Source: Salinicola acroporae
GTDB lineage: Bacteria > Pseudomonadota > Gammaproteobacteria > Pseudomonadales > Halomonadaceae
Assembly: GCF_003206615.1 (NCBI RefSeq)
Contig: NZ_PZJW01000006.1
Span: 620,001-684,000, forward strand
DNA: 64,000 nucleotides
Direction of reading: 5' to 3'
Made by a program: the position numbers and the translations under genes
The notes under the pieces: model-generated
Database searches by the model: none
What the model was told of the DNA's origin: nothing
What the model saw: the letters and a program-made list of their open reading frames with translations, nothing else
Part shown: positions 5,911 to 55,392 of the stretch, one piece after another
How positions within the stretch are numbered: position 1 is the first letter of the stretch
How the letters are laid out: every line of letters begins with the position of its first letter

Positions 5911-7326
<1,416 letters not shown>

Positions 7327-7423
7327 CGTAAGCTCTCCCGGTAGGCGGATGAACGTTGGTTACCGTTTACCCTACGCTAGCCACCCGGGACCCAATAGAA
7401 AAATTGATATTTTTTTGCCAACC

Positions 7424-7441
7424 TATAAGCTCTACCTTATA
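7424..7441. promoter_or_regulatory. Putative LysR-type operator between pycA and its regulator
   Basis: TATAAGCTCTACCTTATA is a perfect 6+6 dyad (TATAAG / CTTATA) around a 6-base centre. It contains the T-N11-A pattern typical of LysR-family sites and lies in an AT-rich stretch 23 bases before the divergent LysR start and about 100 bases before pycA. That position suits autoregulation of the regulator and activation of pycA-pycB. Confidence 0.6.
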
Positions 7442-7463
7442 CCTGACCGCGAGAGCGTAACGA

Positions 7464-8450: not shown

Positions 8451-8456
8451 AATCGA

Positions 8457-8987: not shown

Positions 8988-9230
8988 AGTTTGACTCTTC
9001 AGTACGGACACATCATGGGGGGTTGTATGGATATCATCGTAGTCGCGTTCGATGAGATGGCCACGGCACGGACGCCACTCATCGAGCCGAGATGATTGAT
9101 TGAAAATCCTGTCTCGCGCGGAACGAATCACTACTGCAGTACGCCGCTACCGCGACACCGGATGCATCGACACCCGAAAAACCATCGCCGGCCAACCCCG
9201 CGCTGCGGGAATCATGCGCCAGACACGGCA

Positions 9231-9259
9231 CGGGCCCACCGATGGCGACGGTGGGCCCG
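9231..9259 (-). terminator. Hairpin behind lipA
   Basis: A perfect 11-bp stem CGGGCCCACCG / CGGTGGGCCCG with a 7-base loop lies 24 bases past the lipA stop codon. There is no T-run on the minus-strand side, so it may end transcription weakly or only protect the mRNA 3' end. Confidence 0.55.
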
Positions 9260-9283
9260 GCCGATATTCGCTTCAGAGGGGCG

Positions 9284-10273: not shown

Positions 10274-10308
10274 AGGTCCCTTCCTGATAGGTCTTGGAGC
10301 GCCGGTAG

Positions 10309-10986
10309 CTACACGGTCGCTACCGGTTCAAAAGCTTGTGGCCACCGGGGTTTCGCTTCGAGCTCCACCGCCAGCCGCTGCGCGAGGCAGTCGGCCAACC
10401 TCGTGGCTTCACGGTCAAACGAGATCGGCCCGGGTAGATGATCGCGCAGTTGAGTCATCCTCAGGTCCGAATAGCCGCACGGATTGATGCGAGAAAATGG
10501 AGAAAGATCCATATCGACATTGAGAGCGACCCCATGAAAGCTGCACCCCCGCCGAATCCGCAGACCCAACGAGGCAATCTTGTCATCGCCGACATACACC
10601 CCCGGGGCGTCAGGGCGCGCCTGCGCCAGGATGCCGTGGCAGGCCAGCAGATCGACGACAGCGCCCTCGAGCAACGTCACCAGCTCGCGCACGCCCAGCC
10701 CCCGGCGACGAACGTCCAGCAGCGGGTACAGCACGATCTGGCCCGGCCCATGATAGGTCACCTGCCCGCCTCGATCACTGGCCACCACCGGGATATCGCC
10801 AGGCATCAACAAGTGCTCCGGCTTGCCCGCCCGCCCTTGCGTGAACACGGGTTCATGCTCGACCAGCCACAGCTGGTCCGGCTCCTGGCTATCGCGACCA
10901 TCGGTAAAGCGCGACATCGCCTGCCAGACCGGCAGGTAGGGCTGGCGTCCGAGGCGGTAGAGTGACAGCGCGGACATCGGCGTCAT
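10309..10986 (-). CDS. lipB: Octanoyl-ACP:protein octanoyltransferase
   Basis: Moves octanoate from acyl carrier protein to lipoyl domains, supplying the substrate of LipA. The 225 residues carry the substrate-loop motif [15 protein letters not shown], the catalytic Lys in [12 protein letters not shown] and the catalytic Cys in INPCGY. Its start overlaps the ybeD stop by ATGA (10983-10986), indicating translational coupling. Order ybeD-lipB-lipA is the standard gammaproteobacterial one. Confidence 0.95.
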
Positions 10987-11270
10987 AGCACCATGTGAAC
11001 CCGACCGGTCGCTTTCAGATCCTGGAACAGCGCATTCAACTGCTCCTCTCCAGTGGCCCGAATGACCACGCGGAGTGACTGAAATCGGCCATTGCGGCTG
11101 TCCGACAATTTGATCGACGCCGTATCGAATCCTGGCGCATGACGTTCGATCACGTTGCTGACGACCGCCACGAAGTCATCGGCGGCGTCGCCAACCACCC
11201 GTATCGGGTAATCGCAGGGAAACTCGACCTTGGGCCGGGGAAGATCAACATCACTGGGAGTCTGGGTCAT
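10983..11270 (-). CDS. ybeD: YbeD family protein (DUF493)
   Basis: Small 95-residue ferredoxin-fold protein ([14 protein letters not shown] at residues 14-27, ending in GRVHMVL). The family is widely found beside lipB and resembles ACT-like regulatory domains. The biochemical role is not established; the context suggests a link to lipoylation or to the peptidoglycan genes upstream. The stop codon overlaps the lipB start. Confidence 0.9.
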
Positions 11271-11377
11271 GGCATCTGGGCATGGAAGACATTTCCGAGC
11301 ATTCTACTCAACATTACCCGACTCACCAACCGAAGCCCGACCCAGCACTCCGGGGGAATTCTCCCGAAGCGCCAGGA

Positions 11378-11401
11378 GAGGCACCGGTCGAGCGGCGCCT
11401 C
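11378..11401 (-). terminator. Imperfect hairpin behind dacA
   Basis: On the minus strand GAGGCGCCG pairs with CGGTGCCTC (one G-U wobble) around a 6-base loop, starting nine bases past the dacA stop. There is no T-run, so it is a weak terminator or processing site inside the dacA-ybeD-lipB run. Confidence 0.35.
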
Positions 11402-11409
11402 GGCGGGGC

Positions 11410-12630
11410 TCAGTCGAACAACCCGGTCACGAACAGCACGATGGAGTCCCAGACGCGTTTGAAGATGCTGCCCTCTTCGACGCCTTCCAGCGCGACCAGC
11501 GGCTCCTGGCCCAGCACTTCGTCACCGGATTTGATCTCCAGCGTGCCGACCTGCTGCCCAGCCTGGATCGGCGCATGCAGGGTCTCCGGCAGATTCAGAC
11601 GTGCGGTCAGGTTGTCGGCACTGCCCCGGGGTACGGTCATGCTGACCGCATCCTTGACGCCGAGGCGCACGGTGTCGCTATCGCCGCCCCAGACCCGCGC
11701 CTCGTTGAGCACGGAACCGGCATCATAGAGCTTGCGGGTCTGGAAGAAACGGAAACCGTAGTTGAGCAGGCGCTGGGTTTCCGCCGCCCGCGCCTCATCG
11801 GAATTGGTACCCATGACCACGGCGATCAGGCGCGTGTCCTGCTTCTTGGCGGAAGCGACCAGACAGTAGCCGGCGGCTTCCGTGTGCCCGGTCTTCAGGC
11901 CGTCGACGTCCGGATCACGCCATAGCAGGCGGTTACGGTTGGGCTGGCGGATATCGTTATAGGTGAAGTATTTTTCGGAGTAGACCTGATAGTGGTCGGG
12001 AAAGTCCTTGATGATATGGCGCGCGAGAATCGCCAGATCGTGGGCGGACGAATAGTGATCGTCGTGCGGTAGCCCCGTGGGGTTCATGAAGTGGCTGTTC
12101 TGCATGCCCATGCGTTGGGCCTGCTGGTTCATCAGATCAGCGAAGGCCGACTCGCTTCCGGCGACGTACTCCGACAGCGCCACGCTGGCGTCGTTGCCGG
12201 ACTGCACGACCACGCCGCGCAGCAGGTTCTCGACGCTGACCTGAGTCCCCTCCTGGATGAACATGCGCGAACCGCCCGTGCGCCAGGCATTTTCGCTCAC
12301 GCTGACCATGTCGCTGTCGGAGATACTGCCGCCGTCGATCTCCTGTTCGACGATGTACGCCGTCATCATCTTGGTCAGACTGGCTGGCGGCAGCCGCTGA
12401 TCGCCGTTGTGATTCACCAGCAACTGGCCCGTGGAAGCATCCATCAGCACCCAGGAAGAGGCTGCCAGATCCGGCGGCGACGGGATCAACTGACCGGGCT
12501 CGGGGTTGGTCGCGGACATCTGGCTATCGGGGGTCGGCTGCTGGGCGCTGACCGGCGATGAAAGCAGCCCCAGACACAATGACGCCGAGATGACCAGACG
12601 GGAAACAGACGAAGTGAACAACGCTTTCAT
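11410..12630 (-). CDS. dacA: D-alanyl-D-alanine carboxypeptidase (PBP5/6 type)
   Basis: Low-molecular-mass penicillin-binding protein that trims the terminal D-Ala of peptidoglycan pentapeptides in the periplasm. The 406 residues contain a signal peptide (residues 1-29, cleavage near PVSA/QQ) and the serine-peptidase motifs SLTK (S84, K87), SGN (143-145) and KTG (245-247). A C-terminal beta domain and an amphipathic anchor (IFKRVWDSIVLFVTGLF) follow. It belongs to the mrdA-rodA-mltB-rlpA-dacA cell-wall cluster. Confidence 0.95.
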   Translation of the reverse strand: MKALFTSSVSRLVISASLCLGLLSSPVSAQQPTPDSQMSATNPEPGQLIPSPPDLAASSWVLMDASTGQLLVNHNGDQRLPPASLTKMMTAYIVEQEIDGGSISDSDMVSVSENAWRTGGSRMFIQEGTQVSVENLLRGVVVQSGNDASVALSEYVAGSESAFADLMNQQAQRMGMQNSHFMNPTGLPHDDHYSSAHDLAILARHIIKDFPDHYQVYSEKYFTYNDIRQPNRNRLLWRDPDVDGLKTGHTEAAGYCLVASAKKQDTRLIAVVMGTNSDEARAAETQRLLNYGFRFFQTRKLYDAGSVLNEARVWGGDSDTVRLGVKDAVSMTVPRGSADNLTARLNLPETLHAPIQAGQQVGTLEIKSGDEVLGQEPLVALEGVEEGSIFKRVWDSIVLFVTGLFD

Positions 12631-42658: not shown

Positions 42659-42735
42659 GGCTACGTAGCTCAGCTGGTTAGAGCACATCACTCATAATGA
42701 TGGGGTCCCCTGTTCGAATCAGGGCGTAGCCACCA
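42659..42735 (+). tRNA. tRNA-Met (anticodon CAT, elongator type)
   Basis: A 77-base cloverleaf with acceptor GGCTACG / CGTAGCC, a paired first position as in elongator tRNA, anticodon arm CATCA-CTCATAA-TGATG, and encoded CCA. It is nearly identical to E. coli elongator tRNA-Met over its 5' half. A dedicated promoter and terminator flank it. Confidence 0.96.
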
Positions 42736-42832: not shown

Positions 42833-43705
42833 TTAGAGGGCGCGGCGGCGACTCACCTCGATATAGGCCGCTCGCAGGCGCTGGGCCACCTCACCGGGAT
42901 GTCCGTCGCCGACCGAGACCCCATCGATCGCGATGACCGGTGTCACGAACGAGGAGGCCGAGGTAACGAAGCACTCCCTGGCCTGCTGTGCCTCCTCGAC
43001 GCTGAACGCCCGCTCCTCGAGCTGCAGTGACAGCGCTTCGGCGAGCGTCATGACGGCGGCCCGGGTAATGCCCGGCAAAATGGCGGATGAAAGCTCGCGG
43101 GTCACCAGGGTCGCGTCGTGCGTCAGCATCCACACATTATTGGAAGCCCCTTCGGTCACCATGCCGTCCTCGACCAACCAGGCGTCATCGGCCCCGGCAG
43201 CCTTCGCCGCCATCTTGGCCATGGCGGGATAGAGCAGTTGCACCGTCTTGATATCACGCCGTGCCCAGCGCCAGTCCGGCTGCGTGGCCACACGGATGCC
43301 CTCCCGGCCACTGCGAGCGTCGACCAGCGGCTTGGCCTGGGTGAACAGCACCAGCGTGGGCTGGGTATCGGCGTCGGGGTAGTGAAAATCCCGGTCGCCG
43401 GCGCTGCCTCGGGTCAACTGGAGGTAGACCATCCCCTCGTCCAGCGCATTGCGCCGAATCAGCTCGCGGTGGATCGCCAGTAGCGTCTCCTCGTCCCACG
43501 GAAGCGCTATCTCGAGCGCGGCGGCGGAGCGCTTCAGGCGCCCCATATGGCCGGGGAAGTCGATCAGCTTGCCATCCAGCACCGAAGAGACTTCGTAGAC
43601 GCCATCGGCAAGCATGAATCCCCGGTCGAAGATCGATACCGTGGCGTCCCGCTCAGCGACGTAGTCGCCATTCACGTACACCGTGCGCTGTGTCATCTCA
43701 TTCAT
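42833..43705 (-). CDS. dat: D-amino-acid aminotransferase (class IV PLP enzyme)
   Basis: Transfers the amino group of D-amino acids to 2-oxoglutarate or pyruvate. The 290 residues start at ATG 43703-43705 (an internal Met at 43696 is possible). VSIFDRGFMLADGVYEV is the fold-type IV N-terminal signature; the PLP Lys is in RRDIKTVQLLYPAMAKMAA, and EDGMVTEGASNNVWML follows, all as in D-alanine transaminase. It is the last gene of the TRAP-dgcN-dgcA operon, 32 bases behind dgcA, which favours a D-amino-acid substrate over a branched-chain L-amino-acid one. Confidence 0.88.
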   Translation of the reverse strand: MNEMTQRTVYVNGDYVAERDATVSIFDRGFMLADGVYEVSSVLDGKLIDFPGHMGRLKRSAAALEIALPWDEETLLAIHRELIRRNALDEGMVYLQLTRGSAGDRDFHYPDADTQPTLVLFTQAKPLVDARSGREGIRVATQPDWRWARRDIKTVQLLYPAMAKMAAKAAGADDAWLVEDGMVTEGASNNVWMLTHDATLVTRELSSAILPGITRAAVMTLAEALSLQLEERAFSVEEAQQARECFVTSASSFVTPVIAIDGVSVGDGHPGEVAQRLRAAYIEVSRRRAL

Positions 43706-43737
43706 TTTCTTGTCTCGATCCTTGTGCGACGCGCCCT

Positions 43738-44718
43738 TCAGCCCCACAGGCGCGGCGAAGCCGGGTGGATGCCTGCCGCGTCGAAGCGCATGCCAGGCTC
43801 GCGATCCCGGGCCAGCAGCAGCGGCCCGTCGAGATCGACCACGGCCGCCCCCTGGGCCACCAGTAGCGCCGGTGCCATCGACAGCGACGACCCCACCATG
43901 CACCCCACCATCACCTCGAATCCCCTGGCCAGCGCCTCGCGCTTGAGCGCCAGAGCTTCGGTCAAACCACCGGTCTTGTCGAGCTTGATATTGATCATGT
44001 CGTAGCGCCCCGTCAGCGCCGCCAGGGAGCTTCGATCATGGCAGGCCTCGTCGGCACACACCGGCAGTGGCCGCTCGATCTCCGCCAGTGACGCGTCATC
44101 CGCGGCGGGCAGCGGCTGCTCCACCATGTCGATTCCCAACTCGAGCAGAGCCGGCGCCAGGCGCTGATAGGCCTCGCGATCCCAGCCCTCGTTGGCATCG
44201 ACGATGATTCGCGAATCCGGCGCCCCCTCGCGTACCGCCCGCAACCGCTCGATATCGCCCTCGCCACCCAGTTTCAGCTTCAACAGGGGGCGTGCGGCAT
44301 GCTGCCTGGCCTTGTCGCGCATCATCGCCGGGCTATCGAGCGAGAGCGTGAAAGCCGTGATCTCGGCCACCGGCGCTGGCAGCCCGGCGAGTTGCCAGAC
44401 CGGCGTTCCGCTGCGCTTGGCCTCGAGATCCCAGAACGCGCAATCTACCGCGTTGCGCGCCGCCCCGGCCGGCAGCCTAGCCTGCAGCGCCTCACGATCC
44501 AGCCCGTTGGCCAGATCGTCCTGCAGCGATTCGATCTGCGCGATGACGCTCGCCACCGACTCGCCATAGTGCGCATAGGGCACGCACTCGCCGCGCCCGA
44601 CATGAACGTCGTCGCTCAGGGTCGCCACCACGACCCGCGCGTCGGTGCGCGAGCCGCGGGAGATGGTGAACACCTCGGCGAGCGGGAAGACCTGCTCCTC
44701 GACGCGCAGCTTCAACAT
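43738..44718 (-). CDS. dgcA: N-acetyl-D-glutamate racemase / dipeptide epimerase family
   Basis: Enolase-superfamily enzyme of 326 residues. Acid/base lysines are in PLLKLKLGGEGD (KxK) and INIKLDKTGG (KxDKxGG); metal ligands are in IIVDANEGW, MVEQPLP and ADEACHD. Alone it would be called L-Ala-D/L-Glu epimerase (YcjG). The preceding gene is DgcN, and the DgcN-DgcA pair is known to convert D-glutamate through N-acetyl-D-glutamate to N-acetyl-L-glutamate, so I favour DgcA. Its start, with GGAGG upstream, overlaps the dgcN end by seven bases. Confidence 0.8.
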   Translation of the reverse strand: MLKLRVEEQVFPLAEVFTISRGSRTDARVVVATLSDDVHVGRGECVPYAHYGESVASVIAQIESLQDDLANGLDREALQARLPAGAARNAVDCAFWDLEAKRSGTPVWQLAGLPAPVAEITAFTLSLDSPAMMRDKARQHAARPLLKLKLGGEGDIERLRAVREGAPDSRIIVDANEGWDREAYQRLAPALLELGIDMVEQPLPAADDASLAEIERPLPVCADEACHDRSSLAALTGRYDMINIKLDKTGGLTEALALKREALARGFEVMVGCMVGSSLSMAPALLVAQGAAVVDLDGPLLLARDREPGMRFDAAGIHPASPRLWG

Positions 44719-45713
44719 GCCGCCACCGCCTCCGCCAGTCGTTCTGCGCCCTGGCGATAGGGATCCACGCACGGCAGTCCCAGCCGCGATTCGAGTGCTT
44801 CAAGATAGCGATCCGCCTCGTCGGCGGGCATGGCGGCGGTGTTGACCGAAACGCCGACGACCTGACAGGCGGGATTCACCACCTGGGCCAGCGGCAGCGC
44901 AGTATCGCGCAGTTGCTCGAGCGTCGGCAGCGAGTAATGGGGCAGGCCGCGCATGTGCGTGCGGGTCGGCTCGTGACACAGGATCAGCGCATCGGGCTGG
45001 CCGCCGTGGATCAACGCCAGCGTCACGCCAGAGTATGAGGGATGAAACAGACTGCCCTGCCCTTCGATGATGTCCCAGTGGTCGTCGTCATTGTCCGGCG
45101 TCAGCCACTCGATCGAACCGGCCATGAAGTCGGCGACGACGGCATCCAGCGGCACGCCCTCGCCGGTGATCAGGATCCCGGTCTGGCCGGTGGCGCGGAA
45201 GCTCGACTTCACGCCGCGTTCGCGCAACGCGATATCCAGCGCCAGCGCCGTGTACATTTTGCCGATGGAACAGTCCGTTCCCACCGCCAGGCAACGTTTG
45301 CCCCGACGCGGCTTGCCGTCGCCGATCGGATACTGGACCTGAGGCACGCGCACGTCGACGAGGCGTCCGCCATGCTTCTTCGCGGCCTCGACCAGCACCG
45401 GCTCGTCACGCAGCAGATTGTGCAGACCGGAAGCGATGTCCATTCCGGCGGCCAGTGCCTCCTCGAGCACTGCAATCCAGCTGCGGGAGATCACCCCGCC
45501 ACGGTTGGCCGCGCCGATCACCAGCGTCTGGGCACCCTGCGCAACCGCGTCTTCGATCGTCAGGTCGGGAAGTTTCATGTCCGCCTGGCAGCCCGGCAAC
45601 CGATACTGACCCAACGCATATTCCGGACGCCAGTCACGGATACCCTGCGCCACCTTGGCGGACAACGGGTCGGGCACATCGCCCAGAAAAAGCAGGTAAG
45701 GGGTCTTGAGCAT
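44712..45713 (-). CDS. dgcN: D-glutamate N-acetyltransferase DgcN (DUF1611)
   Basis: The 333 residues belong to the DUF1611 family: an N-terminal Rossmann-like half (PYLLFLGDVPDPLSAKVAQG, IGAANRGGVIS) and a C-terminal P-loop half (CLAVGTDCSIGKMYTALAL, IIEGQGSLFHPSYSGVTLAL). In marine bacteria a DUF1611 protein, DgcN, acetylates D-glutamate as the first step of its catabolism. Starts at ATG 45711-45713 with a weak ribosome binding site, 73 bases behind the TRAP permease. Substrate not proven here. Confidence 0.82.
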   Translation of the reverse strand: MLKTPYLLFLGDVPDPLSAKVAQGIRDWRPEYALGQYRLPGCQADMKLPDLTIEDAVAQGAQTLVIGAANRGGVISRSWIAVLEEALAAGMDIASGLHNLLRDEPVLVEAAKKHGGRLVDVRVPQVQYPIGDGKPRRGKRCLAVGTDCSIGKMYTALALDIALRERGVKSSFRATGQTGILITGEGVPLDAVVADFMAGSIEWLTPDNDDDHWDIIEGQGSLFHPSYSGVTLALIHGGQPDALILCHEPTRTHMRGLPHYSLPTLEQLRDTALPLAQVVNPACQVVGVSVNTAAMPADEADRYLEALESRLGLPCVDPYRQGAERLAEAVAAC

Positions 45714-45786
45714 GAGGGTTATCTCTATCCAATGTCTCGGGTAGTGCAGTGTCTCGGGTGGTGGCACCGCGATCATGACGACGCCA

Positions 45787-47109
45787 TTACATCATGGTTT
45801 CCGGCAACAACAGTGAAATGGCGGGAAATGCCAACAGCAGTGCCAGCACGATCAGGTCACACAGCACGAATGGCCAGACCCCGGCAAACACCTCGTTGAT
45901 CTTGACGCCCTTGCCGGCCGCGCCCGCCAGCGCGAAGGCGTTGAGTCCCACGGGCGGGGTCACGCCAGCGATCTCGCACATTTTCATCGCGATAACGCAG
46001 AACCATACCGGGTGATAGCCCAGCTCCACAACGATGGGAAACACGATCGGCAGCGTCAGCGCAAAGGCGGCGGCTGGCACCACGACCATCCCCATCAGAA
46101 ACCAGATGAGCAGGATCAGGCCCAGCACCATCCACGAGGGCACGTCCCAGGAGACCATGAAACTGGATATCTCGAACGGGATGCGTGTCAGGCCCAGGAA
46201 GCGACTGAAGAACAGCGCCGCGATGATGATGAAGAACAGCGTCGTGGTGATGCCCGCCGATTCGCGCAGCGCCCCACGCAGTCTTGGCATCGAGCGCAAC
46301 GGTCCGCCGACCAGGCCGAGCAGCAGCGCCCCGAGCGCGCCGATGGCACCCGCTTCGGTCGCCGTGAACAGGCCGCTGTACATGCCGCCGATAACCACGC
46401 CACCGAGCGCGAGTATCTGCCACAGGTCCCGCACGCCACGTACTCGGTCACGCACCGTGACCTCGCGCTCCTCGGCATCGATCGGCGCCAGTCGTGGATG
46501 GCGTTTGGCGCGCCACACGATCGAAAGTGTATAGACGATCGCGGTCAGAATGCCTGGGAGAATGCCCGCCATGAACAGCTGGCCGACCGACACGCCGGTG
46601 AAGATCGAGAACAGGATGAACATGCCGCTGGGCGGGATCATCGCCGCCAACGATCCCGAGCAGGCGATACTGCCCAGCGCGAAGCGCTTGTCGTAGCCGT
46701 AGCGCCGCATCTCGGGATAGGCGATACGGCCGAACACGCTGGCCGTGGCCAGCGAAGAGCCGCAGACCGTGGAAAAGGCCGCACTACCGAATGCCGTGGC
46801 CACCGCCAGCGACCCCGGCACCCTCGCCGCCAGCCGGTGGATCCCCTTGTAGGCCTGCTCGGCAAAGCCACTGGCCGCCGCCAGCGCGCCCATCAGGACG
46901 AACAGCGGCAATACGGTAAAGGTCGGCGAGGCGATCGCCGTATACATGGTATCGCCCAACAACGATGACGCGCTGGACGGCGTCAAAAGCGTGGCAATAC
47001 CGATGAAGCCGACCAGCAGGAAGTTGATGGCCAGCGGCACACCCATGACCAACAGCAGCAGCAGCACCGCAATGCCGCCGATACCTATCAGCGTGAAATC
47101 CATGATCAT
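45787..47109 (-). CDS. dctM: TRAP transporter large permease (DctM family)
   Basis: Inner-membrane channel subunit of a tripartite sodium-driven uptake system. About 440 residues with twelve or so hydrophobic helices. Family motifs are GVPLAINFLLVGFIG, PLFVLMGALAAASGFA, GSIACSGSLAAMIPPSGMFI and EIAGVTPPVGLNAFALAG. ATG 47107-47109 is my choice; a second Met two codons on (47103) is equally possible. It lies between the small permease and dgcN, which points to a D-amino acid or an N-modified derivative as the cargo. Confidence 0.92.
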   Translation of the reverse strand: MIMDFTLIGIGGIAVLLLLLVMGVPLAINFLLVGFIGIATLLTPSSASSLLGDTMYTAIASPTFTVLPLFVLMGALAAASGFAEQAYKGIHRLAARVPGSLAVATAFGSAAFSTVCGSSLATASVFGRIAYPEMRRYGYDKRFALGSIACSGSLAAMIPPSGMFILFSIFTGVSVGQLFMAGILPGILTAIVYTLSIVWRAKRHPRLAPIDAEEREVTVRDRVRGVRDLWQILALGGVVIGGMYSGLFTATEAGAIGALGALLLGLVGGPLRSMPRLRGALRESAGITTTLFFIIIAALFFSRFLGLTRIPFEISSFMVSWDVPSWMVLGLILLIWFLMGMVVVPAAAFALTLPIVFPIVVELGYHPVWFCVIAMKMCEIAGVTPPVGLNAFALAGAAGKGVKINEVFAGVWPFVLCDLIVLALLLAFPAISLLLPETMM

Positions 47110-47197
47110 ATCCGTGTTCAGAATAAGACTGTCGAGAGACCGTCCGGCGATGCCGGCCGAATCGTCGCGCCCCCACCCGGCAAGGTCCGGCCACCGA

Positions 47198-47737
47198 TCA
47201 CTCGTCGTGCGCTGCCCGCCTGAACTGGCGCGACAAGCTGCGGCAGAGTTGCAGGCCATACAGGACGAGCGCGGCGAACATCACGAACTTGATCGGGTAA
47301 ACGAGGATCGGGCGCGGCCCGGCAATCGCCTGGCGGCTGTCGAACGCACCGATGGCGTTATGCCATACCGCCCAGCCGACGATCACGATCGTGGCCAGCG
47401 ACACCAGCGTGACGAAGCCATTGAGACAGCGTCCGGCGATACCCTGCAGCCGTTCCGGCAACCATTCGACGCGAATATGGGCGTCCTGCTCCTCGGCATG
47501 GGAGAGCCCGAGATAGACGATCGCGATCATGGTGAACATGGCCAGTTCGGAGACGCCATAAAGGGGGCGGGAGAATCCCCGCGCCACCAGATCGACGACC
47601 ATGAACAGCACCACCACGATCAACAGCCAGCCGCACAGTTCGGCCAGGCCGCGATTGAGCAGGGTCAACAGGCGCGGCCTCCGCGACCGTCGAGCCTCCG
47701 TCCCCGCTCGCGGCTCATGCTGCGCCCGCTCAGTCAT
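47198..47737 (-). CDS. dctQ: TRAP transporter small permease (DctQ family)
   Basis: A 179-residue membrane protein with four predicted helices (LLIVVVLFMVVDLVARG first) and the DctQ pattern FTMIAIVYLGLSHAEEQDAH-IRVEW. The ATG at 47735-47737 overlaps the dctP stop by eight bases; an in-frame GTG at 47749 is an alternative start. It pairs with the large permease 88 bases downstream. Confidence 0.9.
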   Translation of the reverse strand: MTERAQHEPRAGTEARRSRRPRLLTLLNRGLAELCGWLLIVVVLFMVVDLVARGFSRPLYGVSELAMFTMIAIVYLGLSHAEEQDAHIRVEWLPERLQGIAGRCLNGFVTLVSLATIVIVGWAVWHNAIGAFDSRQAIAGPRPILVYPIKFVMFAALVLYGLQLCRSLSRQFRRAAHDE

Positions 47738-48815
47738 GGGCCACGCCACCCGAGCCAGCGTCGATGATCGCCTTCATTCGCTCGATGATCTGCGCGGGCT
47801 TTTCGGCGCCGGCCTTCTCGGCACTCTGAATCCAGGTCTCGCGGTTGGATGCCACCGCCGGCAATGACACGAACTTCTCGATATCCTCGTCCGACGCGGC
47901 CGTCACCGTATAGCCGGCGTCCTGCTGCACCTTGACGATGCGATCGAACTCGTTGTCGTAGTATTCGCCAAAGGTCTTCTCCGCCTGCGCCGCGGCCTGT
48001 TCGAACCAGCCCTGCATCTGCGGGGACATGGCGTCCCACTTGCGCTGGTTGATGGTCAGGATCATGGGAACCGCAAGCCACAGTCGGCGCGAGGTGAGGA
48101 TGTTCGGCGCGACCTCGTCCATGCCGGTCCGGTTGAGGCTGTCGTAATTGGTGAAGACGCCATCGATGGCCCCCGACTGCAGCGACTGGTAGGTGTCGCT
48201 CCACGGCACCGACACCGGCGTCGCTCCCAGATCCCCCAGCAGGTTGAGCATCCACTGGCTGGAAGCCCGGACACGCTTGCCGCGAAAATCGTCGAACGAC
48301 GTCACCGGCTCGCGAAAGACCCCTGCATATGGCAGATAGGGGTAGATGTAGATGATGTGCTGCCCCTGCTGGGTGAACTCCTCCCGCAACTGTGGCACCT
48401 GATCATAGACGTCGTGATAGACCGACATGATGTCGGCGTAATTTTCCGGCCCTTCGGGGAAGAGCTGGAAAGCCCCGTTCAGCAACAACCGGTTGGGATA
48501 GTAATTGATGTTGATGTAGCCCATGTCGGCGACACCGTTGCTGACACCACCAAGAATCTCGTCGCCCTGCATGACCGACGCGCCCCAATAAGGGATTACT
48601 TCTATCTCGCCGCCGGACACCTCGTTGAGCGCATCGAGAAAGCCTTTCTCGGCGGCGCCACGCAGGCCGTTCGGTGCGGTATTGGTCGCGTAGGTCAGCG
48701 TGTCCGCAGCAGCGGGAGCGGGCGCCATGGCGACGGTCGCACCCACGGCCAGGCTGACGGCGGCGGCGGATATCAGATGGCGCCAGCGGCGGGATTCAGG
48801 ATGAGTCAAAGACAT
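47730..48815 (-). CDS. dctP: TRAP transporter substrate-binding protein (DctP family)
   Basis: Periplasmic receptor of 361 residues. A signal peptide ends near residue 37 (PAPAAADTL). The mature part has FRGKRVRASSQWMLNLLGDL with the Arg that usually binds the substrate carboxylate, then SLQSGAIDGVFTNYDS. It is the first gene of the six-gene unit running to dat. GAGG stands before the ATG. A putative operator and a hairpin with T-run lie upstream. The ligand is unknown but should carry a carboxylate. Confidence 0.9.
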   Translation of the reverse strand: MSLTHPESRRWRHLISAAAVSLAVGATVAMAPAPAAADTLTYATNTAPNGLRGAAEKGFLDALNEVSGGEIEVIPYWGASVMQGDEILGGVSNGVADMGYININYYPNRLLLNGAFQLFPEGPENYADIMSVYHDVYDQVPQLREEFTQQGQHIIYIYPYLPYAGVFREPVTSFDDFRGKRVRASSQWMLNLLGDLGATPVSVPWSDTYQSLQSGAIDGVFTNYDSLNRTGMDEVAPNILTSRRLWLAVPMILTINQRKWDAMSPQMQGWFEQAAAQAEKTFGEYYDNEFDRIVKVQQDAGYTVTAASDEDIEKFVSLPAVASNRETWIQSAEKAGAEKPAQIIERMKAIIDAGSGGVAHD

Positions 48816-48868
48816 GGGGTAACCTCGTTTTCGTTGTCATTGTCGTCGAGCTCGTCGCCAAGCCCGCC

Positions 48869-48893
48869 AAAAAAAGTGTCAGCGATCCGACAC
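48869..48893 (-). terminator. Terminator or attenuator in the dctP leader
   Basis: On the minus strand GTGTC pairs with GACAC around an 8-base loop (48876-48893) and is followed by seven T (48869-48875). It either ends the upstream deacylase transcript or attenuates transcription from the operator region at 48911-48946 into dctP. Confidence 0.6.
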
Positions 48894-48910
48894 GCAGCTG
48901 TCTCATGCTT

Positions 48911-48946
48911 TTTCGTCGACAGCCCATAACCCGGTGTTAACGGGTT
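48911..48946 (-). promoter_or_regulatory. Putative operator A before the TRAP-dgc unit
   Basis: CAGCCCATAAC at 48920-48930 with TTAA at 48937-48940 matches site B (52891-52920) at 23 of 30 positions over 48911-48940. A dyad AACCCG / CGGGTT (48928-48946) overlaps it. ATAAC-N6-TTAA suits a LysR-type site. It lies about 100 bases before the dctP start and just past the deacylase stop. Confidence 0.55.
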
Positions 48947-48953
48947 GTCGGCG

Positions 48954-50387
48954 TCACGGTCCCTCGCGCCGGAGAAGCCGACCGGCACGCCGGCGCACGT
49001 CGCCATCGACCCAGGTCTCGTTGCCGTTGACCATGACCCAATCGATCCCCACCGCTGGCGTGGTCGGCTCGACGAAACTGGCGCCATCGAGAATGGTGTC
49101 GAAGTCGAACAGGGTCAGGTCGGCGAATGCCCCCTCGCGAATCACGCCGCGATCGGTCAGACCGAAACGGGCCGCCGACATCGACGTCATCTTGCGGATC
49201 GCTTCGGGCAGCGAGAAAAGCCCCTCATCGCGGCAGTAGTGGCCGATCACCCGGGGGAAACTGCCCCAGAGGCGCGGGTGCGGGTTGGGGTCGCTCGGCA
49301 GGCCATCGGAGCCGATCATGGTCAACGGATGCGCCAGTACGCGGCGCACGTCGCGCTCGTCCATGTTGTGGTAGATCGCCCCGGCCGGCATCAGCCGGCG
49401 TGCCGCCTCGGCCAGATCCACGCCCCACTCCTCGGCAATGGTGGAGAGCAGCCGCCGGCCCTGTTCGGGGTGTGGCTTCGACCAGGTGATCAGGATGTCG
49501 AACTGGCCCGACACCCGCCATAGATCGAGCGTGGTGGAACAAGCAGCGTACGGATAGCAGTCGCAATGGCAGGGCTGGCGTTGCGCGGCCTGCTCGAGCT
49601 TCTCGATCGCATGTTCGCTCTTGCCCCAGTTGTCGACGTCGGCGCACTTCAGGTGGGAGATCACCAGCGGCACTTGCCCATGCCGGGCCGTCTCGAAGGC
49701 CTCGTCCATCGCCTCGAACAAGGCCTCGCGCTCGTTGCGCATGTGGGTGGTATAGATCCCGCCCGCTTCGCCGACGACCTCGACCAGCGCCTTGACCTCT
49801 TGAGTCGGCGCCTGACGCGCGTTGGTGTAGGCAAGTCCCGTGCTCAAGCCGATCGCCCCCGCCCGCAGTGCCGCGCGCAGCGTCTCGCGCATGGCCTCGA
49901 TCTCGACCTCGCTGGCAGGCCGATCGAAACGATCCATCACCCCCGCCCGCAGCGTGGTATGACCGATCAGCGCCGCCACGTTGACGGCGGGCATGGCGGA
50001 GTCCACGGCCGAGGCGAAGTCCCCGAAGGTGTCGAAGAAGTCGTCGGCCTCGCCCAGCAGGTTCATCGGGTCCGGGACCTCACCGTCGATCTTGACCGGC
50101 GAGGCACTGATACCGCAGTTGCCGACGATGACGGTGGTGACGCCCTGGCTGATCTTGGGGCGCATCTCCGGTTGGCGAATCGCGCAACTATCATCGTGAG
50201 TATGCACGTCAATGAACCCCGGCGAGAGAAACCGCCCCGCGGCTTCGACCACCTGCGCGGCCTGCGTCGCATCCAGATCGCCGATCGCCGCGATTCGCTC
50301 TCCCTTCACGCCGATATCGGCCACGAATGGCTCGCGTCCCGTCCCGTCGACAACCTGGGCACGACGAATGATCACATCGAATGTCAT
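48954..50387 (-). CDS. N-acyl-D-amino-acid deacylase
   Basis: Zinc amidohydrolase removing acyl groups from D-amino acids, cytosolic. The ATG at 50385-50387 follows AGGAG and gives 477 residues. The metal-binding motif is FLSPGFIDVHTHDD near residue 60; VTTVIVGNCGISASP holds the bridging Cys typical of D-aminoacylase, ISHLKCADVDNWGK carries a metal His, and MIGSDGLPSDPNPHPRLWGS the catalytic Asp. All match D-aminoacylase and D-glutamate deacylase. It sits between the TRAP genes and two further D-amino-acid hydrolases. Confidence 0.9.
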   Translation of the reverse strand: MTFDVIIRRAQVVDGTGREPFVADIGVKGERIAAIGDLDATQAAQVVEAAGRFLSPGFIDVHTHDDSCAIRQPEMRPKISQGVTTVIVGNCGISASPVKIDGEVPDPMNLLGEADDFFDTFGDFASAVDSAMPAVNVAALIGHTTLRAGVMDRFDRPASEVEIEAMRETLRAALRAGAIGLSTGLAYTNARQAPTQEVKALVEVVGEAGGIYTTHMRNEREALFEAMDEAFETARHGQVPLVISHLKCADVDNWGKSEHAIEKLEQAAQRQPCHCDCYPYAACSTTLDLWRVSGQFDILITWSKPHPEQGRRLLSTIAEEWGVDLAEAARRLMPAGAIYHNMDERDVRRVLAHPLTMIGSDGLPSDPNPHPRLWGSFPRVIGHYCRDEGLFSLPEAIRKMTSMSAARFGLTDRGVIREGAFADLTLFDFDTILDGASFVEPTTPAVGIDWVMVNGNETWVDGDVRRRAGRLLRREGP

Positions 50388-50424
50388 GTTGTTCTCCTGA
50401 TGGCGAGGTGCGGCCAACGTCTTG

Positions 50425-51831
50425 TCATTGAGGGGTTTGCAGCATCGTGCCGGGCTGAACGATCAACGCGTCCAGCCCGGCAGCACGCACCGCCTTCTCG
50501 CCCACGGGCGTCGTGATCAGGCGGCCGCCGCGGCCGACCACCTCCTCGCCGTCGAGCAGTCGTTGCCCATGGGCATAGGTCAACACGGGACGACGGCGTT
50601 CGAGATCGAGCACGCAGATATCCGCATCGGCACCCACGCCCAGATGCCCCTTGTCGCGCAGCCCGAGGATTCGCGCCGGATGCAGACTCGCCTTGCGCAC
50701 GAAGCCATCCAGGCTCAAGGCATCGAGATGCACCAGCGCGAGGCCGCGCGCCACGATGTCGTTGCGTGGGATGCCACCGCCGTCGGTGGCCAGGGCATCC
50801 ACCGCGAAGCGGCCATCAGGCCGCGTGGCCGTCACCAGCCGCAGACGTGGCTCGGGCGGATTGGCACGAAAACTGATACCGATGAGCGACCCGCAGGCGC
50901 GCCAGGCGGCCAGCCCCTCGGCCCCACCCACCAGTTCGATGACGCCGTCGCGCTCCAGATTGACCAGCGCCCAGCCGGCCAGAATCGCCTCGGCCATCCC
51001 CTCGGTGGTGGCCGGATATCCGCCACGTTCGAGTCCGAAGGCGGCCAGTCGGCTGCCGGGAACGCCATCGATGCACTCGCCACTGACACCATTGAACGGC
51101 GCGAGATAGGATTCCGAACGGATATGCGGATGAGCCGCCAGCAGCCGCAATGCCTCTTCGCCCTCGGCGACGGCATCATGGATCTGACCGCGGCAGTAGC
51201 TGTTGATATGCGCCAAGTGAAGCGGATGTCCGGCGCTCAGTTCGCACGCCTCCCGCATACCCTCGATATTGGAGCCGGCCGACCGCGTGCCGGCATGAAA
51301 GGCCGCGTACGCACCTTGCCCTGCAGCCGCTGCGATGGCCTGCGCCGTCGCGTCGGCCGTCAATGGATAGTGCCCACCCAGAAGCTTCAGCCCGATCGCG
51401 CCCTGACTCAGGGCGTGACTCAACGCATCCTCGATATCGCCCCGGCCGGGGTCGGCGGAGGCGATGGTGTGTCCCGGACGCAGATAGTTGACGCAGGCGA
51501 TGCTCAGCCCGCAACCGTGACGGACCGCCAGATCGACGACACCCTCGATGGGTCCGGCCATATCCAGCGCGGTGGTCACGCCCGCCAGCGCCAGCATGCG
51601 ATGGCCGCATCCTCCACCCAGGAAGGGCGAGAGATGCACGTGCATGTCGACGATACCCGGTATGACCAGCAACCCCGTCAGATCGTGCTCGCGTCTTGCC
51701 CCACCGGCGATGGTCGGCGCCACCTCGACGATTTTTCCATCGCGCAAGGCAATGTCCCGAATGTCGTGCACCCCGTTGGCCGGGTCGACGACGGTGCCGT
51801 TGCGCAGCAGGGTGTCATAACCTTCCATCAT
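50425..51831 (-). CDS. Cyclic amidohydrolase of the dihydroorotase-hydantoinase superfamily
   Basis: A 468-residue metal-dependent hydrolase. Start ATG 51829-51831 with GAGG seven bases upstream. Motifs are IPGIVDMHVHLSPF (HxH), a Lys in AIGLKLLGGHY that could be carboxylated to bridge two metals, HAGTR and HLAHINSYCRGQ (metal His), and LATDGGGIP (Asp). The closest pattern I recognise is the amidohydrolase/deacetylase family. Because the next gene is an N-carbamoyl-D-amino-acid hydrolase, a role as hydantoinase opening 5-substituted hydantoins is attractive but is inference only; an N-acyl hydrolase is the alternative. Confidence 0.75.
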   Translation of the reverse strand: MMEGYDTLLRNGTVVDPANGVHDIRDIALRDGKIVEVAPTIAGGARREHDLTGLLVIPGIVDMHVHLSPFLGGGCGHRMLALAGVTTALDMAGPIEGVVDLAVRHGCGLSIACVNYLRPGHTIASADPGRGDIEDALSHALSQGAIGLKLLGGHYPLTADATAQAIAAAAGQGAYAAFHAGTRSAGSNIEGMREACELSAGHPLHLAHINSYCRGQIHDAVAEGEEALRLLAAHPHIRSESYLAPFNGVSGECIDGVPGSRLAAFGLERGGYPATTEGMAEAILAGWALVNLERDGVIELVGGAEGLAAWRACGSLIGISFRANPPEPRLRLVTATRPDGRFAVDALATDGGGIPRNDIVARGLALVHLDALSLDGFVRKASLHPARILGLRDKGHLGVGADADICVLDLERRRPVLTYAHGQRLLDGEEVVGRGGRLITTPVGEKAVRAAGLDALIVQPGTMLQTPQ

Positions 51832-51892
51832 CTCCACACCTCGGCGATCAGCGTGACTGTCATGCTCGACATAGCGACCTTCTCCGCGGCGA

Positions 51893-52819
51893 CTATTGCT
51901 GGCGCTCAACACCCGTCTGCGAGGTAATGCGCCCATAGTGTTCGATGCGACGATGACGCGCGAAATCGAAGATGGTTGTCTTGCCGAACTGGCAGCGTTC
52001 CATATCGCAGGTCGCCGTGATCAGCTCGTCTTCCTCGGTCTGCGCCCGGGCGACGACGAAACCGTCGGGATCGACGATGATCGAGCCACCCATCAGCGGA
52101 AACCCATCCTCGACGCCAGCCTTGGCCACGGCCACCGCCCAGGTCGCATTCTGGTAAGCCCCCGCCGTGACGGAGAGTTCGGAGTGATAGAGGCGCTGCT
52201 CCAGTCCCTCCCCTCGATTCTGGGAGTTCACCGACGGCGTGTTGTAGCCGAGCATCACCAGCTCGACCCCCTGTAATCCCATGACGCGCCAGGTTTCCGG
52301 CCAGCGGCGATCGTTGCAGATGCACATGCCCATCAGCGTGCCTTCGTTGTCGAAGGTCTCGAAGCCCAGGTCGCCGGGTTCGAAATAGCGCTTCTCGAGA
52401 TGCTGGAAATCCCGCCCGGTGTCGTACTCGACATGCCCCGGCAGATGTACCTTGCGATACTTGCCGACGATCTCGCCCTCACGGTCGGTCACGATGGAAG
52501 TATTGAAATGGCGCCCTTCCGGCGTCAGCTCGGCATAACCGAACGAGATGGCGATACGGTGCTCTCGAGCGCGGTCGAACAGCGGCTGCGTCGCGGCGTT
52601 CGGCATCTCGCGCTCGAACCAAGTATCGACCTCGGCCTGATCCTCCATGTACCAGCGCGGGAAGAACGTCGTGAGTGCCAGTTCCGGAAAGACCACCAGG
52701 TCGCATCCGCTGGCCGCGGCCCGATCCAGCAGCGCGATCATTCTCGCCACTACCGCTTCACGCGTGTCTCGCTTCTGAATGGCTCCCATCTGAGCCGCGC
52801 CGATTACCCATTCACGCAT
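51893..52819 (-). CDS. N-carbamoyl-D-amino-acid hydrolase
   Basis: Nitrilase-superfamily enzyme hydrolysing N-carbamoyl-D-amino acids to D-amino acid, ammonia and CO2. The 308 residues carry the catalytic triad: Glu46 in VFPELALTTFFPRW, Lys123 in GKYRKVHLPGH and Cys168 in MCICNDRRWPETW. The stretch HLEKRYFEPGDLGF and the following GVELVMLGYNTPS match Agrobacterium carbamoylase closely. It is the first structural gene after the regulator, behind putative operator B, and about 60 bases before the amidohydrolase. Confidence 0.9.
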   Translation of the reverse strand: MREWVIGAAQMGAIQKRDTREAVVARMIALLDRAAASGCDLVVFPELALTTFFPRWYMEDQAEVDTWFEREMPNAATQPLFDRAREHRIAISFGYAELTPEGRHFNTSIVTDREGEIVGKYRKVHLPGHVEYDTGRDFQHLEKRYFEPGDLGFETFDNEGTLMGMCICNDRRWPETWRVMGLQGVELVMLGYNTPSVNSQNRGEGLEQRLYHSELSVTAGAYQNATWAVAVAKAGVEDGFPLMGGSIIVDPDGFVVARAQTEEDELITATCDMERCQFGKTTIFDFARHRRIEHYGRITSQTGVERQQ

Positions 52820-52890
52820 TGCCGATCCACCTGCTGATGTCTTGTTGGTCGGCTCAGTGTCTGGATTCCGGGCGATGATGTCGTATACCG

Positions 52891-52920
52891 ATTCATCGCC
52901 AGCCCATAACTTTTGATTAA
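52891..52920 (-). promoter_or_regulatory. Putative operator B before the carbamoylase unit
   Basis: CAGCCCATAAC at 52900-52910, N6, TTAA at 52917-52920, and TTC-TCG matches upstream, aligning without gaps to site A. On the minus strand GTTATG and TATACG (52882-52887) are 17 bases apart, so the site would overlap a -35. It straddles the end of the LysR gene and lies about 90 bases before the carbamoylase start. Confidence 0.55.
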
Positions 52921-53837
52921 GGCCGGGAAGCCGGGCCTTCGACAGCGGCGCTGAAACGGACGAACGCCGCTTCGAGGTGGGTGATGAAGAGACGAGCCAG
53001 TTGCGAGAGCGGTTCGGTCCGCGGATAGGCCAGACTCACCACCAGGCGCTGCTCGACCGGCAGGGGAACGGCAGTCAGGTGCCGGCTGCGCCAGCCGTGC
53101 CAGGTAAACTCATCGATCAGGGCGATACCGGCACCGGCGTCCGCCATGGCGCAGGCGTAGTGCGGAGAGTCGACCTCGGTGGCCGGCCGCCATGGCTCGC
53201 CGGCCGCCTCGAAAGCGGCACGGATATGCTGGCCGAACGGGGTTTCCGCGCCGTAACCGATCAGGTCATATTGGCGGAGTTCGGGCAGCGAGACCGTGTC
53301 GCGCGCCGCCAGCGGATGGTCGATCGGACAGACGCAGACCATGCCTGCGCGGTGCAGCGGGTTGGCCTCCAGGTTGGGATGATTCACCGGAAACAGCGAG
53401 ATACCCAGATCGGCCTGACGGTCGAGCAGTTGGTCGCGCAACTGCGTATGACGCTGGCAATCCAGACTGACCCGGACATCATGCTCTTCCCGGAAGCTGG
53501 TGATCGCCCAAGGCACGATCTGATGACCGAGACTCGAACTGGCGGCGATGCGCACCACCCCATGGCGCCGCTGAGTCAGGTCATGCAGCGTATTGTTGAC
53601 CCGCTGGACGTCGCGGTAGACGTTCTCCACGTCGCGGAACAGCCGACGCGCTTCCGGCGATGGGTAGAGCCGCCCCTTGATACGCCCGAACAGCGGAAAG
53701 CCGATGCGCTGCTCGGTATGGGAGAGCATCCGACTCACGGCCGGCTGGGAAATCATCAGGACGCGTGACGCGCCACTGATGCTGCCGGTGGTCATGATTG
53801 CCCGGAAAACCTCGATCTGCCGCAGATTCAGCGCCAT
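52917..53837 (-). CDS. LysR-family regulator of the D-amino-acid cluster
   Basis: A 306-residue transcription factor. Start ATG 53835-53837 preceded by GGAGG. The N-terminal helix-turn-helix is LNLRQIEVFRAIMTTGSISG with MISQPAVSRMLSHTEQ; the effector domain has IGYGAETPFGQHIRAAFEAA. It resembles the LysR regulators that bind amino acids or opine-like compounds. It is codirectional with, and immediately upstream of, the carbamoylase, and putative sites A and B are its natural candidates. It could correspond to the regulator DgcR, but that is not shown. Confidence 0.88.
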   Translation of the reverse strand: MALNLRQIEVFRAIMTTGSISGASRVLMISQPAVSRMLSHTEQRIGFPLFGRIKGRLYPSPEARRLFRDVENVYRDVQRVNNTLHDLTQRRHGVVRIAASSSLGHQIVPWAITSFREEHDVRVSLDCQRHTQLRDQLLDRQADLGISLFPVNHPNLEANPLHRAGMVCVCPIDHPLAARDTVSLPELRQYDLIGYGAETPFGQHIRAAFEAAGEPWRPATEVDSPHYACAMADAGAGIALIDEFTWHGWRSRHLTAVPLPVEQRLVVSLAYPRTEPLSQLARLFITHLEAAFVRFSAAVEGPASRP

Positions 53838-53942: not shown

Positions 53943-55259
53943 TCACTCGATCAAGAGCGAATCGCGATTGAAGAATACCGTCAACGCCCGGATCAGATAC
54001 GCCGGATCGCGGGTACCGGCCGTCTCGCGAATCGAGTGCATGCCGAACTGCGGCACGCCTACGTCGATGGTCGGCACGCCCAGCTCGGTCGCCGTGATCG
54101 GACCGATGGTGCTGCCGCAACCCATGTCGGCACGGGTCACGAACTGCTGCACCGGCACGTCCGCTTCCCGGCATAGGTCATGGAACAACGCTGCCGTCGT
54201 GCTGTTGGTCGCGTAGCGCTGGCTGGCGTTGACCTTGATCACCGGGCCGGCGTTGAGCGCCGGGCCATGGTTGGCATCGTGCTTGTCGGCGAAGTTGGGA
54301 TGCACGGCATGGGCATTGTCGCAGGAGATCATCAGCGAACGCTGGATCAGCCTGACGAAGCCCTCGTCGCCCGCCTCGCCCAGCGCCGCGTTGAGTCGGC
54401 GCAGCACATCGGCCAGGAAGGGTCCCTGGGCACCGCAGGCGCTGGCACTGCCCACTTCTTCATGGTCGTTGGCGACGAACAGCGCGCCCTGTCGGCCATC
54501 GGAGGCCAATAGCGCCTCGACGCCGATGAAGCAGGAGAGCAGGTTGTCCAGTCGCGCGCTGGCAAGCATCTCGCCGCCGACGCCGACCCGCGAGGGAGGC
54601 TGAACGTCATAGAACCCCAGCTCGAAATCGACGATATCCGCCACCTCGAGGCCGTGTTCGCGCTCGATCCACTGTTTCAGCAGGCGATCGAGGTCGGGCG
54701 CGTCGCCGCCCTGCATCAGCAACGGCGCCATCTGCGTCTGCGCATTGAGGGGCCGGCCGTTGTTGGCTTCGCGATCCATGTGAATCGCCAGGCTGGGTAT
54801 GATCGCAATCGGCTCTCTCACGTTCAGCAGCACCGCCTGAAGCTTCCCATCGGTACGGCGAACATGCACGCGCCCGGCAAGCCCCAGGTCACGGTCGAAC
54901 CAGGGTGCCAGCAGCGCCCCGCCGTAGACCTGGACACCCAGTTGCAGCCAGCCCTTGTTGACGATCGCCGGTTGCGGTTTCAGGCGCAAGACCGGACTAT
55001 CGGTGTGGGCACCTACCATGCGCAGGGTCTCGAGAGACGACGCCGGTAGCTGAAACGCGATCAAGGCACTATCGTTGCGCGTCACATAATATTTTTCGCC
55101 GGCTGACAATTTCCAGCTGTCAGTTTCCTTGAGCGACCGATATCCTGCCGCCTCCAGCCTGGCCACGAGGTTCGCGGTGGCGTGCCAGGGGGAAGGAGAA
55201 CGCTGGAGAAAATCGATCAAGCGGTCTTCGAGAGCCTTGTCGGCAGCGTGGTCTGACAT
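53943..55259 (-). CDS. apeB: M18 family aspartyl aminopeptidase
   Basis: Dinuclear zinc aminopeptidase preferring acidic N-terminal residues. The ATG at 55257-55259 follows GAGGAAA and gives 438 residues. Metal-binding motifs are MVGAHTDSPVLRLKP, SARLDNLLSC, ANDHEEVGSAS and the C-terminal GVPQFGMHSIRE. It is bounded by the LysR gene and, divergently, by prc. It may supply amino acids from peptides and is not obviously part of the D-amino-acid unit. Confidence 0.94.
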   Translation of the reverse strand: MSDHAADKALEDRLIDFLQRSPSPWHATANLVARLEAAGYRSLKETDSWKLSAGEKYYVTRNDSALIAFQLPASSLETLRMVGAHTDSPVLRLKPQPAIVNKGWLQLGVQVYGGALLAPWFDRDLGLAGRVHVRRTDGKLQAVLLNVREPIAIIPSLAIHMDREANNGRPLNAQTQMAPLLMQGGDAPDLDRLLKQWIEREHGLEVADIVDFELGFYDVQPPSRVGVGGEMLASARLDNLLSCFIGVEALLASDGRQGALFVANDHEEVGSASACGAQGPFLADVLRRLNAALGEAGDEGFVRLIQRSLMISCDNAHAVHPNFADKHDANHGPALNAGPVIKVNASQRYATNSTTAALFHDLCREADVPVQQFVTRADMGCGSTIGPITATELGVPTIDVGVPQFGMHSIRETAGTRDPAYLIRALTVFFNRDSLLIE

Positions 55260-55392
55260 GGGTTTCCTCGGATGTCGGTCTGTAGTCATGCGGACTGACT
55301 GCTACAATAGGTCCCGGACCTGAAAAAGATTCATGGATCCGGTGGTCTTCTAGGGAATAGAGAGTGTACAGGAAACCGGGAGTGCTTCATTG

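Follow-up and report, generated by a model that had tools for sequence, protein, structure and literature searches.

D-Glutamate is converted to N-acetyl-L-glutamate by DgcN and DgcA, and D-amino-acid transaminases commonly use 2-oxoglutarate, so they make D-glutamate. A strain with genes for D-amino-acid transaminase (DAAT), DgcN and DgcA grows on several D-amino acids, and its DgcN and DgcA yield N-acetyl-L-glutamate (PMC11747546). The other closest described systems are the hydantoin-utilisation (hyu) clusters (PMC3546935) and the D-aminoacylase/OngB clan (PMC12017989). Here we analyze a locus of Salinicola acroporae that combines parts of all three. It lies in a 64,000-nucleotide stretch (the window; contig NZ_PZJW01000006.1, positions 620,001 to 684,000), in which ten minus-strand genes at 42833-53837 encode, in order, a LysR-type regulator, a D-carbamoylase, a cyclic amidohydrolase, a D-aminoacylase-type deacylase, the TRAP importer proteins DctP, DctQ and DctM, DgcN, DgcA, and DAAT. 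As in the described D-glutamate pathway, dgcN and dgcA are adjacent, overlap (by 7 bases), and exceed the curated cut-offs; in contrast to it, DAAT follows them and a front module precedes them. Like the hyu clusters, the locus has a D-carbamoylase, to which its relatives add D-hydantoinase, racemase and an ABC importer. However, the window strain has no D-hydantoinase over the cut-off; it has an unassigned amidohydrolase instead, and the set is joined to dgc. The deacylase matches the D-aminoacylase/OngB clan over its full length but has Thr292/Arg298 where PpOngB has Ser/Gln. Comparative gene content shows a front module of the hydantoin-utilisation type attached to a distinct dgcN-dgcA-DAAT core, pointing to a modular origin, and we think it somewhat probable that the whole is a LysR-controlled regulon for scavenging blocked D-amino acids.

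The boundary between the two parts is seen within the genus. We compared 18 Salinicola genomes, 201 genomes of the family, and a draw of 398 genomes from the phylum (L denotes a locus and G a genome). All ten genes are matched at seven other Salinicola loci (L007-L012 and L017, in G107, G003, G043, G066, G116, G087 and G055, respectively), the close loci coming from S. lusitanus, S. corii, S. socius, S. halimionae, S. rhizosphaerae, S. avicenniae and S. halophyticus. Coverage by the best segments is only partial for DctM in L010 and for the amidohydrolase in L017, and the LysR of L008 is a 65% relative, with five other genes between it and the carbamoylase gene. In L017, the amidohydrolase gene (~10001-11412; G055:C17:615818-617229) is split over two overlapping frames, reflecting either a sequencing error or decay. 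The carbamoylase is present in 9 of the 18 genomes and the amidohydrolase in eight of these nine, counts that come from related genomes and not from independent events. The ninth, G124, carries a D-hydantoinase in place of the amidohydrolase, and G003 carries both; the third match to the D-hydantoinase, in G095, is merely 38% identical. The front block precedes the dgc core in 9/18 genomes, and dgc adjacency is kept in every carbamoylase-bearing Salinicola (9/9). Five others have dgcN-dgcA-DAAT without the front block (L082, L083, L084, L085 and L087), and there an M18 aminopeptidase gene lies directly upstream. The M18 gene of the window is at 53943-55289, and the front block stands between it and the core, both here and in the relatives. 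A DgcN model search found no dgcN in the other four of the 18 genomes. The idea of the first-pass annotation that these genes form one integrated D-amino-acid locus gains support, with the parts co-inherited in 8/18 Salinicola genomes and an operator-like element common to them. Comparison across the family keeps this D-amino-acid locus and redraws it as a hydantoin-utilisation module plus a separate core.

In the family, DgcN exceeds its cut-off in 32 of 201 genomes, and we viewed the surroundings of dgcN in 28 of them (all except G037, G050, G097 and G103). Outside Salinicola, dgcN-dgcA-DAAT occurs at L088, L089, L090, L092, L093 and L100, the last with a front block too. At the other eight loci (L091, L094-L099 and L101), dgcN and dgcA accompany a 30-36% LysR relative, and no DAAT match was found; unlike these eight, the window has no such LysR directly before dgcN. 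The relatives' front blocks are more complete. L008 runs racemase, LysR, D-hydantoinase, ABC importer and then the window order. L086 (G124) runs racemase, LysR (63%), D-hydantoinase, ABC-type genes, carbamoylase, deacylase, DgcN, DgcA and DAAT. In L100 (G121, another genus), the order is carbamoylase, deacylase, DctPQM, DgcN, DgcA and DAAT; upstream lie ABC-type genes together with an 88% D-hydantoinase. In L011 and L103, HyuAB and a TRAP set are encoded divergently from LysR-carbamoylase, and L104 and L105 carry, away from dgc, LysR (59-60%) with D-hydantoinase, an ABC importer, carbamoylase and deacylase. For L008, family models confirm the racemase, the D-hydantoinase and part of the importer; they also confirm HyuA and HyuB of L011, the D-hydantoinases of L104 and L107, the racemase of L107, and HyuA of L106. 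The D-hydantoinases of G124 (a 94% copy) and G121 (the 88% copy) were matched by sequence, and the like genes of L103, L105, L108 and L109, as well as the L086 racemase, were identified from N-terminal letters only. Frames were listed for 13 of the 16 carbamoylase regions, not every one of which showed a hydantoin gene. Since the relatives' carbamoylase accompanies D-hydantoinase, hydantoin racemase or HyuAB-type genes, the front block is, judged by gene content, a hydantoin-utilisation module, and comparison with L008, L011 and L086 makes the window cluster a derived form of the hyu cluster. In other genera of the family (L114, L115 and L118), a 57-58% carbamoylase adjoins TRAP genes and an M20-type gene, possibly an L-carbamoylase (Pfam check on L115 only); the operator-like element has no match at these three loci.

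This element is shared by the gaps before the carbamoylase gene and before dctP (138 bases), which have a 19-base stretch in common with 17 matches. When one gap was shuffled base by base 2000 times, no shuffle reached its score of 28, the highest being 27. A 42-base pattern built by aligning the relatives' gaps matches the window twice, against none in 100 shuffles (≤3 mismatches). Element 1 (52879..52920, minus strand) lies before the carbamoylase gene and overlaps the lysR stop codon, and element 2 (48899..48940, minus strand) lies before dctP; these are the only two sites in the 4.37-Mb genome. Across the 201 family genomes, the pattern has 23 matches in 13 genomes and its reversed control has none (≤2 mismatches). 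These 13 are exactly the genomes with a carbamoylase 82-100% identical to that of the window, and six family genomes with a 51-60% carbamoylase have no element. By position, eight sites precede carbamoylase, eight precede dctP and five precede D-hydantoinase; the remaining two come after lysR and before another amidohydrolase-type gene (G016 and G037). At L104, an amidohydrolase/deaminase-like gene (1613-3055) directly follows the element in G016 and has a counterpart in G037, making it a candidate member of the regulon. All nine carbamoylase-bearing Salinicola have the element beside dgc; at L008 the copy before dctP is imperfect, its spacer being one base longer, and the pattern misses it. 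LysR-type operators contain a T-N11-A dyad before the regulated genes. The element has this dyad, with a TAAC-N5-GTTA core whose dyad Cs, Gs and Ts are kept in 19-20 of 20 distinct sites, and is a putative operator at which the LysR may bind. The second element, in front of dctP, makes two transcription units more probable than a single one and weakens the case for one ten-gene operon; the locus is probably read as two units under one LysR. A terminator-like hairpin with a T-run (48876..48893, minus strand) was found by eye only in the window and L007 among nine gaps folded, and we do not rely on it. A sigma-70 scan gave one site, below the shuffled mean of 1.9.

The ten adjacent minus-strand genes that the first-pass annotation had listed proved real, in the same order and place; window open-reading-frame and family searches recovered all ten, each with a family match. 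Their third-position GC is 0.76-0.84, and the G+C of the locus (0.63-0.65 in 4-kb steps) is inside the window range of 0.60-0.67. With trimmed starts, neighbouring genes overlap by 7-8 bases or are spaced by 32-138 bases. Five genes, all on the minus strand like the rest, reach curated NCBIfam cut-offs: DgcN, a D-glutamate N-acetyltransferase (44712..45713; NF041892, 545 bits, cut-off 480), DgcA, an N-acetyl-D-glutamate racemase (43738..44718; NF042940, 515 bits, cut-off 400), DAAT (42833..43705; PRK06680, 385 bits, cut-off 320), DctM, the TRAP large permease (45787..47109; 281 bits, cut-off 268), and DctP, the TRAP binding protein (47730..48815; 78 bits, cut-off 50). By a narrow margin, DgcA is above the cut-off of the L-Ala-D/L-Glu epimerase model as well (352 bits, cut-off 343), and its name therefore leans on the neighbouring DgcN. 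DAAT scores 154-158 bits against solved D-amino-acid and D-alanine aminotransferases. DctP is only a distant relative of solved binding proteins (best 81 bits), so its ligand is not readable from them. The other five genes reach Pfam cut-offs only: LysR (52917..53837; HTH_1 and LysR_substrate), the carbamoylase, an N-carbamoyl-D-amino-acid hydrolase (51893..52819; CN_hydrolase), the amidohydrolase (50425..51831; Amidohydro_1/3), the deacylase (48954..50387) and DctQ, the TRAP small permease (47198..47737). The carbamoylase matches 11 solved D-carbamoylase sequences over its whole length at 345-400 bits (400 bits to 6lei). Most of the family names given earlier hold; the soft one is "cyclic amidohydrolase", which reached no NCBIfam cut-off among the 25 best models shown of 59. 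A tRNA-Met gene lies on the plus strand just past the end of the transaminase gene (42659-42735). An Rfam search gave nothing beyond this known tRNA, and a PHROGs search gave only weak matches of no use.

The amidohydrolase is the one unplaced enzyme. It scores 50 bits against the D-hydantoinase model TIGR02033 (cut-off 393), is 21-22% identical to the relatives' D-hydantoinases, and its alignments to solved chains fall mostly in the N-terminal part and, in a few cases, in the C-terminal part. Cyclic amidohydrolases bind metal through an HxH motif, a Lys and two His, and this pattern is kept, with H179 invariant across 19 rows and H64, H66, K149 and H208 nearly so. A first structure model was poor (mean predicted local distance difference test, pLDDT, 54.6) and was not used for the fold search. 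The nearest folds to a second model (mean pLDDT 75.0) are dihydropyrimidinase and D-hydantoinase, a nearness that may be partly built in, as the alignment behind the model held three D-hydantoinase rows; allantoinases and D-aminoacylases are within ~2 Z of the top matches. No recognised hydantoinase, either D-hydantoinase or HyuAB, was found in the window cluster by Pfam and NCBIfam. In the window genome, no D-hydantoinase exceeded the TIGR02033 cut-off (best 38 bits), the L008 D-hydantoinase had no match at 1e-50, and no HyuA relative appeared at 1e-80, cut-offs that weaker relatives could escape. The amidohydrolase is thus the one candidate ring-opener found in this genome. Alternatively, the carbamoylase could act on imported carbamoyl compounds. 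A plain D-hydantoinase replacement is too strong a description of the amidohydrolase, as L008 has both enzymes and L011 has HyuAB alongside. Orthologs of 55-60% identity in Alphaproteobacteria have different neighbours, which offer no more than a hint of function. Three of them (L013, L015 and L016) are in Rhodobacteraceae-type genomes. CuyA, a named D-cysteate sulfo-lyase, lies near the ortholog in L013 and L016, accompanied by a peptide-type ABC importer, and a class-A-beta-lactamase-like gene (98.8 bits, NCBIfam cut-off 200) adjoins the ortholog in L013. MlrC-like and gamma-glutamyltransferase genes are near it in L016 and, by N-terminal letters, in L015, and L014 has a TRAP binding-protein gene nearby.

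The deacylase scores 418-591 bits against eight solved D-aminoacylase/OngB-type sequences, the nearest being Klebsiella D-acylase (591 bits) and PpOngB (549 bits); a literature search on the former found nothing relevant. Positions are those of the PpOngB chain, which match the numbering of PMC12017989. Positions 292 and 298 are Thr and Arg in 13/13 aligned deacylases from the carbamoylase modules of the family (window, L007-L012, L017, L086, L100, L103, L104 and L105). Position 193 is Ala in 13/13 and position 256 in 11/13 (Met in L104 and L105), and both are Ala in PpOngB. Outside the family, the AfDam-like deacylase of L113 also has Thr/Arg at 292/298. In the alignment, the window Arg shares a column with Arg295 of 3gip (BbDam), an N-acyl-D-glutamate deacylase in which this residue is described as binding the gamma-carboxylate (PMC12017989), and AfDam too has Arg in this column. 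Judged from these residues, the enzyme has an OngB-like body in which two specificity positions hold a Thr and an Arg of the D-aminoacylase type, and an acidic D-amino acid is a plausible substrate. Naming it a proven N-acyl-D-glutamate deacylase was withdrawn because of the AfDam Arg, and a plain OngB is ruled out by Thr292/Arg298 and by a separate ong-like paralog with Ser292 and Gln298 in the same genome. This paralog lies at L102 (G000:C27:109500-129400), where positions 3925-11260 carry the OngB-like deacetylase, a sodium symporter, an RpiR-type regulator, two RidA-type genes with identical N-terminal 60 residues, a D-serine-dehydratase-like gene and an M20 gene, surroundings that resemble reported ong clusters (PMC9537276).

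From the gene content, conservation, module boundaries and shared element described above, we infer the substrates, the direction of flux and the order of events as follows. The carbamoylase, amidohydrolase and deacylase of the first unit would open hydantoin-like rings and strip carbamoyl or acyl groups, releasing free D-amino acids. The second unit, comprising the TRAP importer, DgcN, DgcA and DAAT, would take up an organic acid and drain the D-amino acids. With 2-oxoglutarate as acceptor of their amino group, DAAT would produce D-glutamate and a keto acid. DgcN would then acetylate D-glutamate and DgcA invert the product to N-acetyl-L-glutamate, which may enter arginine synthesis or be hydrolysed to L-glutamate. 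ArgJ, which uses N-acetyl-L-glutamate in arginine synthesis, is present in the window genome. If D-glutamate links DAAT to DgcN/DgcA in this way, it would account for the three genes staying together in several genera. The first-pass annotation had D-glutamate going to L-glutamate and other D-amino acids going to keto acids in parallel; the steps survive, and a single D-glutamate hub would be the simpler scheme in place of parallel routes. As to origin, a hydantoin-utilisation module may have come between the M18 aminopeptidase gene and a dgcN-dgcA-DAAT operon.

Several observations weigh against this scavenging regulon. The amidohydrolase lacks an assigned family, coexists with a D-hydantoinase in L008 and adjoins HyuAB in L011, and a deacylase active on N-acetyl-D-glutamate would undo the work of DgcN. 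Most element sites were known before the pattern was written, although those unused in building it (four in G016/G037 and the upper site of G121) are also inside the module. G121 has the element, yet no LysR relative was found in L100/L149, which reach 3.5 kb past the upper element. Carbamoylase and dgc are linked in 10 of the 13 family genomes with a close carbamoylase (nine Salinicola and G121); they are megabases apart in G037 and on different contigs in G016 and G097. In the phylum draw, DgcN exceeds its cut-off in 63/398 genomes and the carbamoylase is found at 1e-60 in 23/398 (at most five candidates scored per genome, both draws being taken as the same genomes under the same settings). 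Eight of the 398 have both, adjacent in only two, both Salinicola, and a general carbamoylase-dgc linkage was not seen outside the family among the genomes drawn. The two halves might accordingly be unrelated systems, a hydantoin module and a D-glutamate operon brought together by chance insertion, given that the core stands alone in five Salinicola and the front block away from dgc in G016, G037 and G097. However, the element before dctP, which heads the dgc-containing unit, recurs in eight genomes of two genera, and together with the unbroken dgc adjacency in Salinicola this renders chance insertion improbable.

Alternatively, the whole pathway may be dedicated to glutamate, a narrower form of the scavenging regulon. 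The amidohydrolase would convert hydantoin-5-propionate to N-carbamoyl-D-glutamate, the carbamoylase would release D-glutamate, the deacylase would free N-acyl-D-glutamate, and DgcN/DgcA would finish. The DgcN and DgcA models are named for D-glutamate, and the deacylase has both the Arg that aligns with Arg295 of 3gip and, at 193 and 256, the Ala residues of the open PpOngB pocket. Nevertheless, AfDam, specific for hydrophobic substrates, shares this Arg, D-carbamoylases that have been characterised find use with many different side chains, the amidohydrolase scores merely 40 bits against the hydantoin-5-propionate amidohydrolase model (cut-off 650), and our literature search, of incomplete coverage, gave no match for N-carbamoyl-D-glutamate. 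We regard a glutamate-only route as a rather unlikely possibility. A related proposal is that racemase, D-hydantoinase and D-carbamoylase feed the D-glutamate pathway as one LysR regulon, with the amidohydrolase as a new stand-in hydantoinase subfamily, so that opening and freeing carbamoylated, cyclised and acylated D-glutamate-type compounds for conversion to L-glutamate would be the natural job of these genes in these halophiles; this, too, we hold to be doubtful. The deacylase and amidohydrolase might also act on other compounds, for example dihydropyrimidines or an oxidised amino sugar (GlcNAc1A). The deacylase is closest overall to Klebsiella D-acylase and PpOngB, and the amidohydrolase model resembles dihydropyrimidinases and D-hydantoinases equally. 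But the Ser292/Gln298 of the GlcNAc1A deacetylase is replaced by Thr/Arg and is found instead in the separate paralog of the ong-like cluster, which leaves other substrates very unlikely.

Literature searches of incomplete coverage gave no match for dgcN with hydantoin, for hydantoinase with D-glutamate, operon and D-amino acid catabolism, or for three or more of the topics N-carbamoyl-D-amino acid, D-aminoacylase, D-amino acid transaminase and gene cluster together. What is new here is the modular origin of the locus, along with its dedicated element at two sites; otherwise, it combines known parts in a new way, together with one enzyme of no assigned family. In surveyed deep-sea genomes, dgcN was reported in 32 class-level clades (PMC12363236), and this breadth makes the entry of blocked D-amino acids into the pathway of wider interest. 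The amidohydrolase is a candidate for a new ring-opening subfamily, and the Salinicola species with and without the module offer a natural comparison. For enzymes familiar mostly from industrial use, the locus suggests one role in nature, and it places them in a testable natural context that comprises a regulator with its probable operator, an importer, and a route along which the D-amino acid can be processed.

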